From IMG/VR virus record IMGVR_UViG_3300027721_000009, positions 64,001 to 98,976 of that record: 34,976 bases of DNA. One strand, written 5' to 3'. Position numbers and translations under genes: made by a program. This document shows, piece by piece, positions 1,524 to 7,755 of this stretch (positions are counted from its first letter, which is position 1; each line of letters begins with the position of its first letter). Source of the stretch: a virus. Below the pieces are notes generated by a model that searched no databases, was not told the DNA's origin, and saw only the letters and a program-made list of their open reading frames with translations.

Positions 1524-2210
1524 GTGACATTTCTACACGTAAAGCATGAGTTTCCTACTCTCTTGAAGGAAGAAACCGAAGATGGTCAACGAGTGTATTG
1601 CACTCCGGATGGGAAACGATATCCGTCTGTAACGACTGTCATTGCTCCACACAACAAAGATGCTATCGACCGGTGGAAGGCACGTATCGGTCATGCCAAG
1701 GCTAAGAAGATATCCGAGAATGCCTCAGAGCGTGGAGATATCGTTCACTTAGCATTAGAAGCACTCCTCAACAATTACTCGACCGGTGAAATCGTCAAAC
1801 AGATGATGCCGCACGCTAAGGCTGTCTATCTCAATATGAAGACTGAGCTAGAGCGTCGGCTGACAGAGGTTCACGGATTAGAACAACCCATGTTCTCGCA
1901 CAAACTACGATTAGCGGGAACCACCGATTGTATAGCAAAATATGACAATCTCTTGAGTATCGTGGACTTCAAGACCGCTCTTAGACTCAAGAAAACCGAA
2001 TACGTTCAAGGCTACTTCATGCAGCTTTCGGCATATGCGTTCATGTTTGAGGAAATGACCGGTCTGCGCATTGAACAGGGTGTAATCCTGATTGGCGTGG
2101 ACAATGAGACATTTGCACAGACCTTCCGGCTTCCCCGCGAGAAATTCGGTCCTCACCTGAAAGAGATAGTTTCGTGGAGAGATAAATACGAGCAGGGGCT
2201 AGCAGCATGA
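1524..2210 (+). CDS. PD-(D/E)XK exonuclease (RecB/Cas4-like)
   Basis: 228 residues. The start is GTG at 1524, with AGGA six bases upstream. The fold is indicated by ERGDIVH (69-75), GTTD with D135, the strand ending in VDFK (D148, K150) and QLSAY (167-171). These correspond to the motifs of the RecB-nuclease/Cas4 group: a metal-binding histidine region, two acidic residues with the following lysine, and the downstream Gln/Tyr motif. Homologues in T4-like phages of cyanobacteria and proteobacteria are annotated as exonucleases of unproven role, perhaps host DNA breakdown or recombination. The four cysteines of an iron-sulphur Cas4 protein are not present. It is the first gene after the consensus promoter and overlaps the next small ORF by ATGA. 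Confidence 0.85.
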   Translation: MTFLHVKHEFPTLLKEETEDGQRVYCTPDGKRYPSVTTVIAPHNKDAIDRWKARIGHAKAKKISENASERGDIVHLALEALLNNYSTGEIVKQMMPHAKAVYLNMKTELERRLTEVHGLEQPMFSHKLRLAGTTDCIAKYDNLLSIVDFKTALRLKKTEYVQGYFMQLSAYAFMFEEMTGLRIEQGVILIGVDNETFAQTFRLPREKFGPHLKEIVSWRDKYEQGLAA

Positions 2211-3278: not shown

Positions 3279-3515
3279 ATGGAAACGACAGTATCAGAAG
3301 ACACTCGCTACATGAGCCGCAAGTTTCGGTTCTCTGTGGCGGCATGGATCGCAGGCACGATTGCGTATGCGACAGGGTTCTTCACCGAGGTTCCCATGAT
3401 GACGACGGACCAGTGGATTCTGTTCACGCAATGGATCGTCGGTCTGTACCTCGCAGGCAACGTCGGTGACACACTCGTTACCGGTCTAGCCAACGTATTC
3501 ACGGTGAAGTCATGA
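3279..3515 (+). CDS. Two-helix membrane protein, holin-like
   Basis: 78 residues. A short polar N-terminus ending YMSRKFRF precedes a hydrophobic helix (about 18-35) and a second helix (about 46-61, WILFTQWIVGLYLAGNVGD). The pattern SRKF...GLYLAGNVGD recurs in small phage membrane proteins often annotated as holins or hypothetical. Size, two helices and the nearby SleB-type hydrolase allow a holin role. The tmRNA and two other genes lie between them, so this is not a classical compact lysis cassette. Other possibilities are an inner-membrane superinfection-exclusion protein. It overlaps the next gene by four bases (ATGA). Confidence 0.6.
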   Translation: METTVSEDTRYMSRKFRFSVAAWIAGTIAYATGFFTEVPMMTTDQWILFTQWIVGLYLAGNVGDTLVTGLANVFTVKS

Positions 3516-3997
3516 GCCTCTTCAAGAACCCTTGGCAAGCGGTCATTGCCATCGTCATCTTCATCAGTCTCTTCCTGTTTCTATTAAGTCGGGAAGCGCG
3601 AAGTGAAGAAATCTACTTCGACGGCGGTTCAACCATCGTGCGCGGATATGCTCCGGTCATCGGAATCAATGTCGCGTGGAAGGAAGAAGGTCCGAAGAAG
3701 ACTGACTACGAATTAGGATTCAAGCTTATCGGTGAATCTGAGTTCAAGGAAGAGGATCAGAGCAATCAGTTTGTCGTTCACGGCATGTTGGTTGACGGAT
3801 ACAAGAATGCGGAAATGGGAATCGGGTTTGCCTACTTCAACGTAGAATCAGACTACAATTGCCAGTTCACATTCTCGTTGCTTGCGCGTTATCGGTTCAC
3901 GGAACGGATTCACGTACAGGCTCACCACTTCTCTACCGCAGGGTCATGTCGCCCGAATTATGGCAGAGATTTACTCACCGTAGGATGGAGGTTCTAA
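3512..3997 (+). CDS. PagL-like outer-membrane beta-barrel (possible lipid A 3-O-deacylase)
   Basis: 161 residues. Residues 9-26 are a hydrophobic signal helix, with probable cleavage near REARS/EE; the rest alternates like an eight-strand barrel and ends in an aromatic residue (VGWRF), as outer-membrane proteins do. HHFSTAGSCRPNYGRD contains H139, S141 and D153. In PagL of Pseudomonas the catalytic triad is His126, Ser128 and Glu140, with the same spacing of 2 and 12, and the family carries HxSNAG...PN.G around it. Here the acid is Asp instead of Glu and the residue after Ser is Thr rather than Asn, so activity is uncertain. If active, it would remove an acyl chain from lipid A in the host outer membrane. 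The family call is inferred from motif spacing. Confidence 0.55.
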   Translation: MSLFKNPWQAVIAIVIFISLFLFLLSREARSEEIYFDGGSTIVRGYAPVIGINVAWKEEGPKKTDYELGFKLIGESEFKEEDQSNQFVVHGMLVDGYKNAEMGIGFAYFNVESDYNCQFTFSLLARYRFTERIHVQAHHFSTAGSCRPNYGRDLLTVGWRF

Positions 3998-4109: not shown

Positions 4110-4178
4110 TCGGTTATAGTGGTATGATGTGAAGTGAAGGTATTCTGGACGCGGGTTCGACTCCCGCCTGCTCCACCA
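4110..4178 (+). ncRNA. ssrA: Permuted tmRNA, acceptor piece (3' half)
   Basis: The T arm is perfect: GCGGG (4151-4155), loop TTCGACT, CCCGC (4163-4167). CTGCTCC (4168-4174), discriminator A and encoded CCA (4176-4178) follow. CTGCTCC pairs with GGGGCAG at 4261-4267 to give a 7-pair acceptor stem with a G3-U70 wobble, the alanyl-tRNA synthetase identity element. Long helix P2 is supported by TATTCT (4141-4146) pairing with AGGGTA (4281-4286) and TAGTGG (4117-4122) pairing with CCACTA (4302-4307). The 5' end must therefore lie upstream of 4117; 4110 is an estimate. In the gene this 3' half comes before the 5' half, as in two-piece tmRNAs. No separate promoter was found, so it is probably made from the upstream transcript. 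Confidence 0.92.
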
Positions 4179-4260
4179 CGAAAGACTCTCACCCGAGATG
4201 CGCAGAAGTTGAGTTCTTACTGCGATACAAGGGAACAACACTCTGAGAGTCTTTCGTAAT
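4179..4260 (+). other. tmRNA intervening segment, excised during maturation
   Basis: The segment between the CCA end (4178) and the mature 5' G (4261) opens with CGAAAGACTCTC (4179-4190) and closes with its perfect complement GAGAGTCTTTCG (4245-4256). This 12-pair stem extends the acceptor stem in the precursor. A smaller hairpin (CGCAG 4201-4205 with CTGCG 4220-4224) lies inside. Only TAAT separates the stem from the coding piece. Removal by RNase P at the 5' side and tRNA 3' processing at the CCA side is the known route for permuted tmRNAs; here it is inferred. Confidence 0.85.
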
Positions 4261-4429
4261 GGGGCAGTCAAGGTTTCGACAGGGTAAGATAGCGGAACGG
4301 ACCACTAGAGAGGCGACTGACTTAATCAGCGCAAACACTACAAATGCAAACGCAGATGTATACGAGGAAGTGCGCCTAGCGGCGTGACCCTCCGGGGCAG
4401 GAAATGCCTTGTTACCAAAACCACCAGAA
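4261..4429 (+). ncRNA. ssrA: Permuted tmRNA, coding piece (5' half with tag frame)
   Basis: It begins GGGGCAG and continues to the GGTTTCGAC element, matching the conserved D-loop-like start of all tmRNAs. The P2 strands AGGGTA (4281-4286) and CCACTA (4302-4307) follow, then a CTGA/TCAG hairpin (4317-4329) just upstream of the resume codon, then the tag frame, a GGCA-GGAAA-TGCC hairpin (4396-4408) and an A-rich tail. The 3' end is placed before the terminator and is approximate. With host SmpB it should be charged with alanine, release ribosomes stalled on broken mRNA and tag the stalled peptide for proteolysis. A phage copy may matter while host mRNA is degraded. Confidence 0.92.
4331..4387 (+). 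other. tmRNA proteolysis-tag reading frame
   Basis: From resume codon GCA (4331-4333) to TGA (4385-4387) the frame reads ANTTNANADVYEEVRLAA. The first Ala follows the alanine carried by the tRNA-like end. The C-terminal LAA is the ClpXP degron form. The Asn-rich start recalls the AND/AAN starts of bacterial tags, but at 18 codons it is longer than the usual 10-14 or so and lacks the common DN(F/Y/N)A core. Confidence 0.88.
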
Positions 4430-4457
4430 GGGGAGAGGGCAACCTCTCCCCGTCTTT
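4430..4457 (+). terminator. Terminator of the tmRNA transcript
   Basis: GGGGAGAGG (4430-4438) and CCTCTCCCC (4443-4451) form a 9-pair GC-rich stem closed by a GCAA (GNRA) tetraloop, followed by GTCTTT. The T tract is short, so read-through to the SleB-type gene 37 bases further on is possible; no separate promoter for that gene was found. Confidence 0.8.
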
Positions 4458-4493
4458 ACATGATGAAAGTCGCAACACATGGAGGAAAATAAC

Positions 4494-5174
4494 ATGCGCC
4501 GACTAACGATGATGATACTTGCTATGATACTTGTGGGCTGTGCGTCAATTCCGACCTCGACACAGCAACTCTCCCAACTCCCCGACGCAACGGAAGCACT
4601 GGAAGAACTCTCATTCAGAGCCAGTCTGGAACTCTATGTGATTGAACACCAGTACGACATTGAGCGTATGCTCGCTAACATCAGTCTGGAACTTCCCGAT
4701 TTTGTGCGCGTAGCCACTGCCGAAGACCGCAAGGCTATTCAGTGCCTCGCGAAGAATATCTATTGGGAAGCCACTGGCGAACCACTGCGCGGTAAGAAAG
4801 CCGTCGCACAGGTCACTCTCAATCGCACCGAGGATGTGCGCTTTCCGGCTGATATCTGCGGTGTAGTCTACGAACGCGACAAGGTGAAGAAAGACGGGCG
4901 CATGAAGACCATCTGCCAGTTCTCATGGACTTGTATGAGCGTCAAGAACAAGACTCCGCGCCATCCGGAAGAGTGGGAACATGCGCAGGAAATCGCTGCT
5001 AAGTTTATCCTCGACGGATATCACATACCTGAATTAGACGAAGCACTGTTCTATCACGCCGACTACGTTCGCCCTAAGTGGGCTAAGAAGATGGTCAAGA
5101 TCGAAAAGATCGGGGCGCATATCTTCTACCGTGAGAAGGTCAAGCAGAATGGGATTTACTTAGCGTCCAATTGA
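4494..5174 (+). CDS. SleB-type cell-wall hydrolase with lipoprotein signal (putative endolysin)
   Basis: 226 residues from the ATG at 4494, chosen over an in-frame ATG at 4479 because GGAGG stands at the right distance from 4494. The N-terminus MRRLTMMILAMILVGCAS is a lipoprotein signal peptide with the lipobox LVGC (C16). Residues 80-200 match the SleB/CwlJ hydrolase domain: LAKNIYWEATGEP with candidate catalytic E92, AQVTLNR, and QFSWTC. SleB-type enzymes are lytic transglycosylases that cleave peptidoglycan glycan strands. It is the likely lysis enzyme, but the lipobox would tether it to the membrane, unlike a soluble endolysin. A region of about 60 residues between signal and domain looks helical and unassigned. 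Confidence 0.85.
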   Translation: MRRLTMMILAMILVGCASIPTSTQQLSQLPDATEALEELSFRASLELYVIEHQYDIERMLANISLELPDFVRVATAEDRKAIQCLAKNIYWEATGEPLRGKKAVAQVTLNRTEDVRFPADICGVVYERDKVKKDGRMKTICQFSWTCMSVKNKTPRHPEEWEHAQEIAAKFILDGYHIPELDEALFYHADYVRPKWAKKMVKIEKIGAHIFYREKVKQNGIYLASN

Positions 5175-5183
5175 TGCTATACT
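5155..5183 (+). promoter_or_regulatory. Probable sigma70-like promoter before the gp33-gp59 operon
   Basis: TTTACT (5155-5160), a 17-base spacer and TATACT (5178-5183) give 4/6 and 5/6 matches. The predicted start lies about 20 bases before the gp33 ATG. It overlaps the end of the SleB-type gene, where a new operon logically begins. Confidence 0.5.
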
Positions 5184-5211
5184 AAGACCATGAGTTCACT
5201 GCGAGTGTATA

Positions 5212-5433
5212 ATGCCAACTAGAGAAGAAAAGAACGAGTTCTCCGAGAAGATCATGCTGCGAATGCAAGATCTGAATACGGACTGCCTCGACGCAATGGT
5301 AACATATTGCGAAGAGATTGGTCTGGAAATGGAGGTCGCGGCAACTCTAGTGAACGATATCCTCAAAGAGCAATTAGAGGATGCATTCGCAGAACTCAAC
5401 TACATTGAGAAGAGTGGCAAGCTGCCGCTATGA
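5212..5433 (+). CDS. 33: gp33-like late transcription coactivator
   Basis: 73 residues. The pattern (MPTREEKNEFSEKIMLRM, then LDAMVTYCEEIGLEMEVAATLVN, ILKEQLEDAFAELNYI and the terminal KLPL) resembles T4 gp33, which has IxEKMVxxxxxxYLEAxxxxxEE, an E-rich amphipathic helix and a hydrophobic C-terminus. T4 gp33 bridges host RNA polymerase (beta flap) and the gp45 sliding clamp, activating gp55-dependent late promoters. The order 33-59-32 is the same as in T4, which supports the call. At 73 residues it is shorter than the T4 protein (112). The stop overlaps the next ATG by four bases. Confidence 0.7.
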   Translation: MPTREEKNEFSEKIMLRMQDLNTDCLDAMVTYCEEIGLEMEVAATLVNDILKEQLEDAFAELNYIEKSGKLPL

Positions 5434-5916: not shown

Positions 5917-6161
5917 GCGACAACAAGACAGAACTATTGAAAGAGACACTCAGCCTGTTTAACATGTTGGGTGTCATTCCCGGTCAGGGAGCAGACGGCA
6001 AACTCATGAGTAAGATCATGGACGAGCTATCAGGCGATGCGCCGCCGAGAGTCACATTCACCATGCCGCGTGGACGCTGCCCTTGTTGTGGCGCACCAGA
6101 CCTCATGAATTGCGACTGTAATCCAGACGACCAATTGGCGGCATTCGAAGCGCGAAAGTAA
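5913..6161 (+). CDS. Hypothetical protein with a cysteine cluster
   Basis: 82 residues. A helical N-terminal half (SDNKTELLKETLSLFNMLGV) precedes a small Cys-rich knuckle: C56, C58, C59, C67 and C69 in RCPCCGAPDLMNCDCNPDD. The spacing could hold one zinc ion. No family is recognised. It lies directly before gp59, sharing TAATG, and may have a DNA-transaction role by association only. Confidence 0.65.
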   Translation: MSDNKTELLKETLSLFNMLGVIPGQGADGKLMSKIMDELSGDAPPRVTFTMPRGRCPCCGAPDLMNCDCNPDDQLAAFEARK

Positions 6162-6772
6162 TGAACGGCTACGAAGTATTCTGCACCTATCAGGCTATCA
6201 AGCTGCACTTCACCACCGACACCTATTGCTTCTTCAAGTACAATGGTAAGGTAGCAACGAAACCCGCAGGCTTTGAGAAGCGCAAGGACAAGTATATGTT
6301 CCACCGGCTCGCTCGCAATCTACGCGACGAGGAAGTGGTGGGATTCTTTGTTTCCAACTTCCTCATGAAGCAGAAGGCGTGGACGCAGGATTTCCTTGAA
6401 CCGGAAGCGAAGGAAACGTATCTTGCATGGCGCAAGAAAATAGACTCGCTCTCTTACACGTTCGATCAGGACATGACTAAGATCATTGAGGAAATGGACA
6501 AGCGCGACATGGGAATCGGCGCGATGTTCAAGCCACCGGCAGACGGATCGTATCCTCTAATCTGGACGATGATGAATCAGGGTGACATTGAGTTCGAAAC
6601 CATGGTCATCCTGCACGGCATGACCGGCGTACTCGACTTGTGGGATGCGAAGTATAATTCGGATTTCATCTACGAGAAGACTTCTAAGCTCATACGCAAG
6701 TATGAACCTTTCTTGGGACTGGACGTACCCAAGTTCAAAAAGATCGTCCAAAAGCACTTGACTACATGTTGA
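6161..6772 (+). CDS. 59: gp59-like DNA helicase loader
   Basis: 203 residues against 217 in T4. It aligns by eye with T4 gp59: YQAIKLHF near the start (T4 YKLYLMIKQHF-like), FEKRKDKYMFHRLARNLRDEEVVGFFVSNFL (T4 YQKRRDKYFFQKLSEKYKLKELALIFISNLV), then KAWTQDF (T4 DAWIGD), IEFETMVILHGMTGVLD (T4 ISFETFILLDSFLNIID) and a final RKYEPFLGLDVPKFKKIVQ. gp59 binds fork DNA and gp32 and loads the gp41 replicative helicase. Its place directly upstream of gp32 is as in T4. The protein is basic and mostly helical, as expected. Confidence 0.88.
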   Translation: MNGYEVFCTYQAIKLHFTTDTYCFFKYNGKVATKPAGFEKRKDKYMFHRLARNLRDEEVVGFFVSNFLMKQKAWTQDFLEPEAKETYLAWRKKIDSLSYTFDQDMTKIIEEMDKRDMGIGAMFKPPADGSYPLIWTMMNQGDIEFETMVILHGMTGVLDLWDAKYNSDFIYEKTSKLIRKYEPFLGLDVPKFKKIVQKHLTTC

Positions 6773-6855: not shown

Positions 6856-7755
6856 ATGGCATTAGATTTCAAATCTCTCAAAAAGTCCTCTGGACTCACC
6901 GAAAAACTCACCAAGGCAATCGAAGACAAGAACAAGGGTTCTTTCGCCAAGGATGACGAGCGGTTCTGGCAACCCGAAGTAGACAAGGCAGGAAACGGTT
7001 ACGCAATCGTTCGCTTGCTCGACGCTCCCGCAGTGGACGGCGAAGATGGTCTTCCGTGGGTACAGGTGTTCAACCATGGCTTCCAAGGTGGAGCGGGTTG
7101 GTACATCGAAAACTGCCCAACGACTGTGGGTGGCAAGTGTCCTGCTTGCGAACACAATAACAAACTCTGGAACTCCGGTATCGAATCCAACAAGGATATC
7201 GTCCGTAAGCAGAAGCGTCGGCTCACCTACATTTCGAACATCCTTGTCGTAGCTGACAAGAATCGTCCGGAAAACGAAGGTAAGGTCTTCCTCTGGAAGT
7301 ACGGTAAGAAGATCTTCGACAAGATTCAGGAAAAGCTGACTCCTCAGTTCGAAGACGAAACGGCAGTGAATCCGTTCGACTTCTGGAAGGGTGCTGACCT
7401 CAAGATCAAGATCCGCAACGTGGAAGGCTATCGTAACTACGATAAGTCCGAATTCGCTGACGCGGCTCCGGTCTACGAAGAGGACAAGAAGATCGAAGCA
7501 CTCTGGAAGAGCGCACACTCCCTCAAGCAGTTCGTTGCTCCGAAGGAATTCAAGACCTACGATGAACTGAGCGAGAAGCTCAATCGTGCCTTGGGTGCCG
7601 GTGGTGCGGTCGCGGCTCGCGCAGCCAAGATCGAAGACGACTCTGCACCGTGGCAGGAGCCGAAGGCAGCAGAGGCTCGCGCTCCACGCGCAACAGCCGA
7701 AGCGGTCAGTGTCGATGACGACATGGATTACTTCAACAAGCTCGCGCAAGAGTAA
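6856..7755 (+). CDS. 32: gp32-like single-stranded DNA binding protein
   Basis: 299 residues (T4: 301). The AAGGAAAT site stands before the ATG. The sequence follows T4 gp32: the RFW...VDKAGNGYAIVRLL strand, NHGF...GWYIENC, a zinc site with H74, C87, C95 and C98 (T4 H64, C77, C87, C90), the NILVV...NEGKVFLWKYGKKIFDKI segment, WKGADLKIKI, and NYDKSEF. The basic N-terminus (residues 1-21) would mediate cooperative binding and the acidic C-tail (SVDDDMDYFNKLAQE) would bind partners such as gp59. It coats single-stranded DNA in replication, recombination and repair. The 60-base AU-rich leader suits the autogenous translational repression known for T4 gp32. A strong terminator follows. Confidence 0.96.
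   Translation: MALDFKSLKKSSGLTEKLTKAIEDKNKGSFAKDDERFWQPEVDKAGNGYAIVRLLDAPAVDGEDGLPWVQVFNHGFQGGAGWYIENCPTTVGGKCPACEHNNKLWNSGIESNKDIVRKQKRRLTYISNILVVADKNRPENEGKVFLWKYGKKIFDKIQEKLTPQFEDETAVNPFDFWKGADLKIKIRNVEGYRNYDKSEFADAAPVYEEDKKIEALWKSAHSLKQFVAPKEFKTYDELSEKLNRALGAGGAVAARAAKIEDDSAPWQEPKAAEARAPRATAEAVSVDDDMDYFNKLAQE

Follow-up and report, generated by a model that had tools for sequence, protein, structure and literature searches.

Structure of the tmRNA gene and its setting

The window, that is, the whole 34,976-nucleotide stretch of DNA analysed, corresponds to positions 64001-98976 of the 98,976-bp IMG/VR phage record IMGVR_UViG_3300027721_000009. The record contains the T4-type families gp32, gp59, gp33, DNA end protector, baseplate wedge/hub and tail tube cap, indicating that its source is an uncultivated T4-like phage. 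No close isolate phage was found: the best isolate gp32 match was about 50% identical, and a DNA search against isolate phages matched just two short stretches, of 42 and 69 bases. Elsewhere in the record are 35 tRNA genes (L004:2343-8796), which cover every amino acid except phenylalanine, and a nicotinamide phosphoribosyltransferase gene (L004:17871-19244), suggesting NAD metabolism during infection. Within the window, a protein with a PagL-like lipid A deacylase domain is encoded at 3512-3997, near the lysis-type hydrolase gene.

tmRNA rescues stalled ribosomes and marks the incomplete proteins on them for degradation. The segment 4118-4387 was confirmed as a complete circularly permuted (two-piece) tmRNA gene, and the described tmRNA parts are all present across 4117-4453, so that the anatomy of the gene is established. 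The 3′ half, which carries the encoded CCA, comes first, followed by the intervening sequence and then the 5′ half (Table 1). The acceptor stem is fully paired and contains the G3-U70 alanine identity pair, and the 13-residue tag has a hydrophobic-Ala-Ala ending.

Table 1. Positions of the tmRNA parts and of neighbouring genes in the window
Feature	Position	Strand	Basis or detail
PD-(D/E)XK exonuclease, upstream slot marker	1524..2210	+	PF12705, phrog_298, synteny
First piece	4117..4178	+	RF04321 and RF01850 alignments; anchor and pairing checks
Outer helix	4117-4123 with 4301-4307		TAGTGGT with ACCACTA
P2	4141-4146 (3′ strand) with 4281-4286 (5′ strand)		TATTCT with AGGGTA
T arm	4151-4167	+	In first piece
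Acceptor stem	4261-4267 with 4168-4174		GGGGCAG with CTGCTCC; 7/7 pairs including G3-U70
A73	4175
Encoded CCA	4176-4178
Intervening sequence	4179..4260	+	82 nt; 13-pair closing helix, 4179-4191 with 4244-4256; fold
Second piece, 5′ part	4261..4345	+	Acceptor 5′ strand 4261-4267, GGTTTCGAC, P2 5′ strand, outer-helix partner, up to resume codon
Tag reading frame ANADVYEEVRLAA	4346-4384; stop TGA 4385-4387	+	ARAGORN
Second piece, 3′ part	4388..4429	+	Pseudoknot region of beta model; RF01850 alignment complete to model end, 4455
GC-rich 9-bp hairpin, likely intrinsic terminator	4430..4451	+	Fold and comparison with relatives
Cell-wall hydrolase, directly 3′ of tmRNA	4479..5174	+	PF07486, phrog_938 endolysin
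gp33-like late promoter transcription regulator, downstream slot marker	5212..5433	+	phrog_254; matches Mosig gene adjoining SsrA
gp59 helicase loader	6161..6772	+	phrog_269
gp32 single-strand DNA binding protein	6856..7755	+	phrog_224

Covariance-model searches of the 35-kb window, on whose outcome the preliminary description had staked its reading, gave 124.1 bits with RF04321 (tmRNA_permuted; E 4.6e-24, model positions 1-213 of 213, gathering cut-off 47 bits) and 109.7 bits with RF01850 (beta_tmRNA; E 9.7e-33, 331/331 positions, cut-off 84 bits). A permuted tmRNA with the tag ANADVYEEVRLAA was called independently by ARAGORN. The folding energy had a z of -6.0, none of 100 shuffles being as low, and the minimum-energy structure holds the acceptor, T, P2, outer and intervening-sequence helices. 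The Rfam E-values, the ARAGORN call and the folding z exclude a chance origin of the match. These results bear out the earlier account of a complete permuted ssrA with the CCA half first, its perfect seven-pair acceptor stem with the G-U alanine pair, and the pairing of TATTCT with AGGGTA and of TAGTGG with CCACTA across the halves; the second of these is the outer helix and extends to seven pairs. The stem that bounds the intervening segment was also recovered, with 13 pairs rather than the 12 given before. Membership of the alpha type was rejected, RF01849 (alpha_tmRNA) scoring 36.8 bits against a cut-off of 50 bits; the alpha-model search proposed in the preliminary description would thus have missed the gene, although the gene is real and the beta model fits it.

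The hairpin at 4430-4451 was missed by a simple terminator scan and its following T run is weak in the window, whereas a run of TTTT or longer follows it in several relatives. A terminator-like hairpin, altered in sequence, also lies 3′ of the gene in the nearer relatives. No sigma-70 promoter was found directly upstream of the window tmRNA, and the gene lies immediately next to the stop codon of a 36-aa ORF, so that its promoter must be located farther away. A near-consensus sigma-70 promoter (TTGAC ... TATAAT) stands immediately 5′ of the tmRNA in two related contigs, L021 and L042.

Conservation and turnover at the locus in related phages

A search with gp32 as the query yielded 80 IMG/VR loci, 35 of which span the interval from the exonuclease to gp33/gp59. 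ARAGORN or Rfam identified a permuted tmRNA in 31 of these 35 contigs, some of which are near-duplicates, which shows it to be a stable phage gene. The four spanning contigs that have none (L048, L054, L060 and L075) imply that the tmRNA is not essential. In L060, L062 and L063, a one-piece tmRNA that is not permuted adjoins tRNAs downstream of gp32 (RF00023, 99.8 bits in L060). The synteny indicates that the permuted tmRNA is a long-standing resident of one gene neighbourhood common to many phages, and its long residence in phages is established. The two-piece tmRNA thus belongs to the regular gene complement of a widespread, uncultivated group of T4-like phages and is not a stray host gene.

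The content of the slot is less constant. In L007, whose gp32 is 95% identical to that of the window, the slot holds a clearly different tmRNA (5030-5360, tag ANESYFYEQALAA) with halves only 59-66% identical, which is probably a cassette replacement. The intervening sequence was compared between window 4179-4260 and L012, L455 and L456. That of L012 is 93% identical to that of the window, although the mature RNA before the tag is only 77-81% identical, suggesting that the intervening sequence is swapped independently of the remainder of the gene. Conversely, relatives with halves 82-98% identical have intervening sequences that are 32-57% identical, which is near the level of unrelated sequences in such an alignment. 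The intervening sequence was also considered as a mobile element; this was rejected, its core being found in only three IMG/VR contigs, with all three copies inside permuted tmRNA genes. Its 14-base end matched 65 contigs, mostly as expected by chance at that length. Comparison of the contigs thus indicates that the slot is conserved while its content turns over.

The RNA and the tag peptide were then compared among the copies. Acceptor stems were scored in 150 genes (138 phage and 12 bacterial), and all seven pairs were present in 149 of them, the exception, Mosig, being a mis-anchored row. The 17 well-anchored acceptor-stem sequences keep all seven pairs and G3-U70 (an 18th is the mis-anchored Mosig row). 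A closing helix of at least six pairs surrounds the intervening sequence in 44/49 phage slot copies, with differing sequences. P2 is fully paired in 134/155 genes, but real partners formed 5.57 of 6 pairs and shuffled partners 5.02, so P2 alone is modest evidence. Pairwise differences among the four distinct sequences encoding ANADVYEE tags fell at third codon positions 20 times, at second positions four times and at first positions never, and each of the 32 different tags in the syntenic set starts with AN and ends with LAA, IAA or MAA. Taken together, the compensatory changes in the acceptor stem and the third-position bias in the tag codons establish that RNA pairing and tag peptide are both under selection.

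Predicted function, tag length and alternative explanations

Given these features, the window gene is very probably a working phage ssrA of the permuted, beta-like kind, which would carry out ordinary trans-translation with host partners and keep ribosomes free. Its expression, processing sites, charging, tagging and benefit are predicted from sequence. Two cuts in a single transcript, at the CCA (4178) and ahead of the 5′ strand of the acceptor stem (4261), would remove the paired intervening sequence, and the acceptor stem, P2 and the outer helix would hold the two RNA pieces together. Host AlaRS could charge the molecule through G3-U70, and host SmpB and EF-Tu would bring the charged tmRNA to stalled ribosomes. 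No SmpB was found in the record, which may be incomplete, so that SmpB could lie outside it; host SmpB is therefore presumably used. Translation would resume on the tag ANADVYEEVRLAA, the tagged peptide would pass to host ClpXP, and ribosomes would stay available in the infected cell, where mRNA undergoes heavy degradation. The earlier suggestion that ribosomes stalled on cut mRNA are freed in this way is plausible.

The phage tags differ in length from those of bacteria. Among 32 different slot tags, 19 are 12-14 residues long and 13 have the ordinary length of 10; the 18 usable bacterial tags are uniformly 10 residues long, the doubtful calls L228 (11-residue tag), L231 and L242 having been left out. 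Ten is also the most frequent tag length in a tmRNA database paper (PMC11915505). In the long phage tags, the two to four extra residues follow the aromatic residue and precede the terminal LAA. The intervening sequence is longer in phages as well, with a median length of 76 nt across 138 phage genes versus 30 nt across 12 bacterial genes; comparison of the slot set with 18 bacterial genes gave P = 5e-8, relatedness being ignored. A second IMG/VR phage group with no gp32 locus nearby (L251, L262, L265, L294, L306, L309 and others) has permuted tmRNAs with tags of 28-31 residues, for example ANADTFDFSAMSFTGNTVRGAANESRFALAA, and further contigs have tags of 24-33 residues. Over the first 18 tag codons of the second group, 406/626 differences fell at third positions, which shows that the long peptide is under selection.

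These tags bear on an alternative that we consider unlikely, namely that the phage RNA is a competitor that is charged, enters ribosomes and displaces host tmRNA, its different tag changing the fate of the product (faster, slower or adaptor-dependent degradation) instead of adding rescue capacity. The 12-14 residues of the tags in the window group, against 10 in the sampled bacterial genes, would suit such a role, as would the inhibition of host tmRNA by the tag-less phage tmRNA DS6A (PMC11915505). The engineered tag DAS+4, in which four added residues separate the SspB site from the ClpX site and the C-terminus is changed, makes degradation strongly SspB-dependent (PMC8138137), so that an altered route to proteolysis is conceivable. 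However, the 13 slot tags of ordinary length and the retention of LAA-type ends speak against the competitor. A related proposal, which we put forward only tentatively, is that phages of this lineage keep the permuted tmRNA slot and evolve lengthened tags, by two to four residues before the ClpX-recognised LAA or, in another phage group, to 24-31 residues, and might thereby re-route proteolysis under their own control, with stalled products handled otherwise than those that the host tags. The varied phage tags and the clear selection on the peptide make it testable whether phages alter the destination of ribosome-rescue products.

It is highly improbable that the gene is a recently captured host ssrA carried as passive cargo, for example after imprecise excision from an attachment site in ssrA. 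Integration at ssrA is common (PMC11915505) and the gene fits a bacterial clade model, but the slot is shared by 31/35 related contigs and by Mosig, and the tag and helices are under selection. In its mature sequence, the window copy shares 79-93% identity with the closest phage copies but no more than 56% with any of 14 sampled bacterial ones, suggesting that it was probably not taken recently from a host. In a quick tree of 162 columns, it was placed among the phage slot copies, with the bacterial genes in separate groups; as many forks were open or had low support and the bacterial sample was small, only this broad separation was used. Recent capture was therefore rejected on identity, tree and synteny. 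The claim in the preliminary description that the gene points to the host lineage holds weakly for its fold, which is of the beta type, but not for its sequence, which groups with phage copies and not with sampled bacterial ssrA. One genome scan returned mainly one-piece tmRNAs. Least probable of all is a decayed or non-expressed remnant, which the lack of a promoter found close by would fit, as all stems are intact, the tag is open with third-position bias and the terminator-like hairpin is kept in relatives.

Comparison with known permuted tmRNAs

The window gene shares with the tmRNAs of RF04321 and RF01850 the order of the halves, the acceptor stem with its G-U pair, the T arm, the tag and the 3′ hairpin. 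Unlike the bacterial members of these families, it lies in a phage, its intervening sequence is 82 nt long compared to 4-54 nt in 18 bacterial genes, and its tag has 13 residues compared to 10; its RF01850 score is below that of most sampled bacterial members. The two-piece ssrA of the Methylophilales phage Melnitz has been assigned to the alphaproteobacterial group and is reported to occur with a glutamine riboswitch (PMC9004378), whereas the window gene fits the beta model and the window gave no match to a riboswitch family. The same paper counted 53 two-piece tmRNAs in a phage database (PMC9004378).

Pelagibacter phage Mosig (MT647606) carries an SsrA that is annotated next to gp33, and its slot has the same order as that of the window (exonuclease, tmRNA, gp33, gp59, gp32). 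However, the Mosig tag as called by ARAGORN is the 9-residue GEDNFALAA, its gp32 is only 50% identical to that of the window, and the DNA matches obtained for the window region do not include its tmRNA. The preliminary description was thus right to place a permuted tmRNA in a T4-like phage, although this is less notable than it claimed, such genes having been published (PMC9004378) and one being annotated in Mosig in the same slot. Permuted tmRNAs in a few marine phages and in T4-like phages were already known; what is new, judging from the contigs compared here, is the stable residence of one in a single slot, in 31 of 35 contigs.
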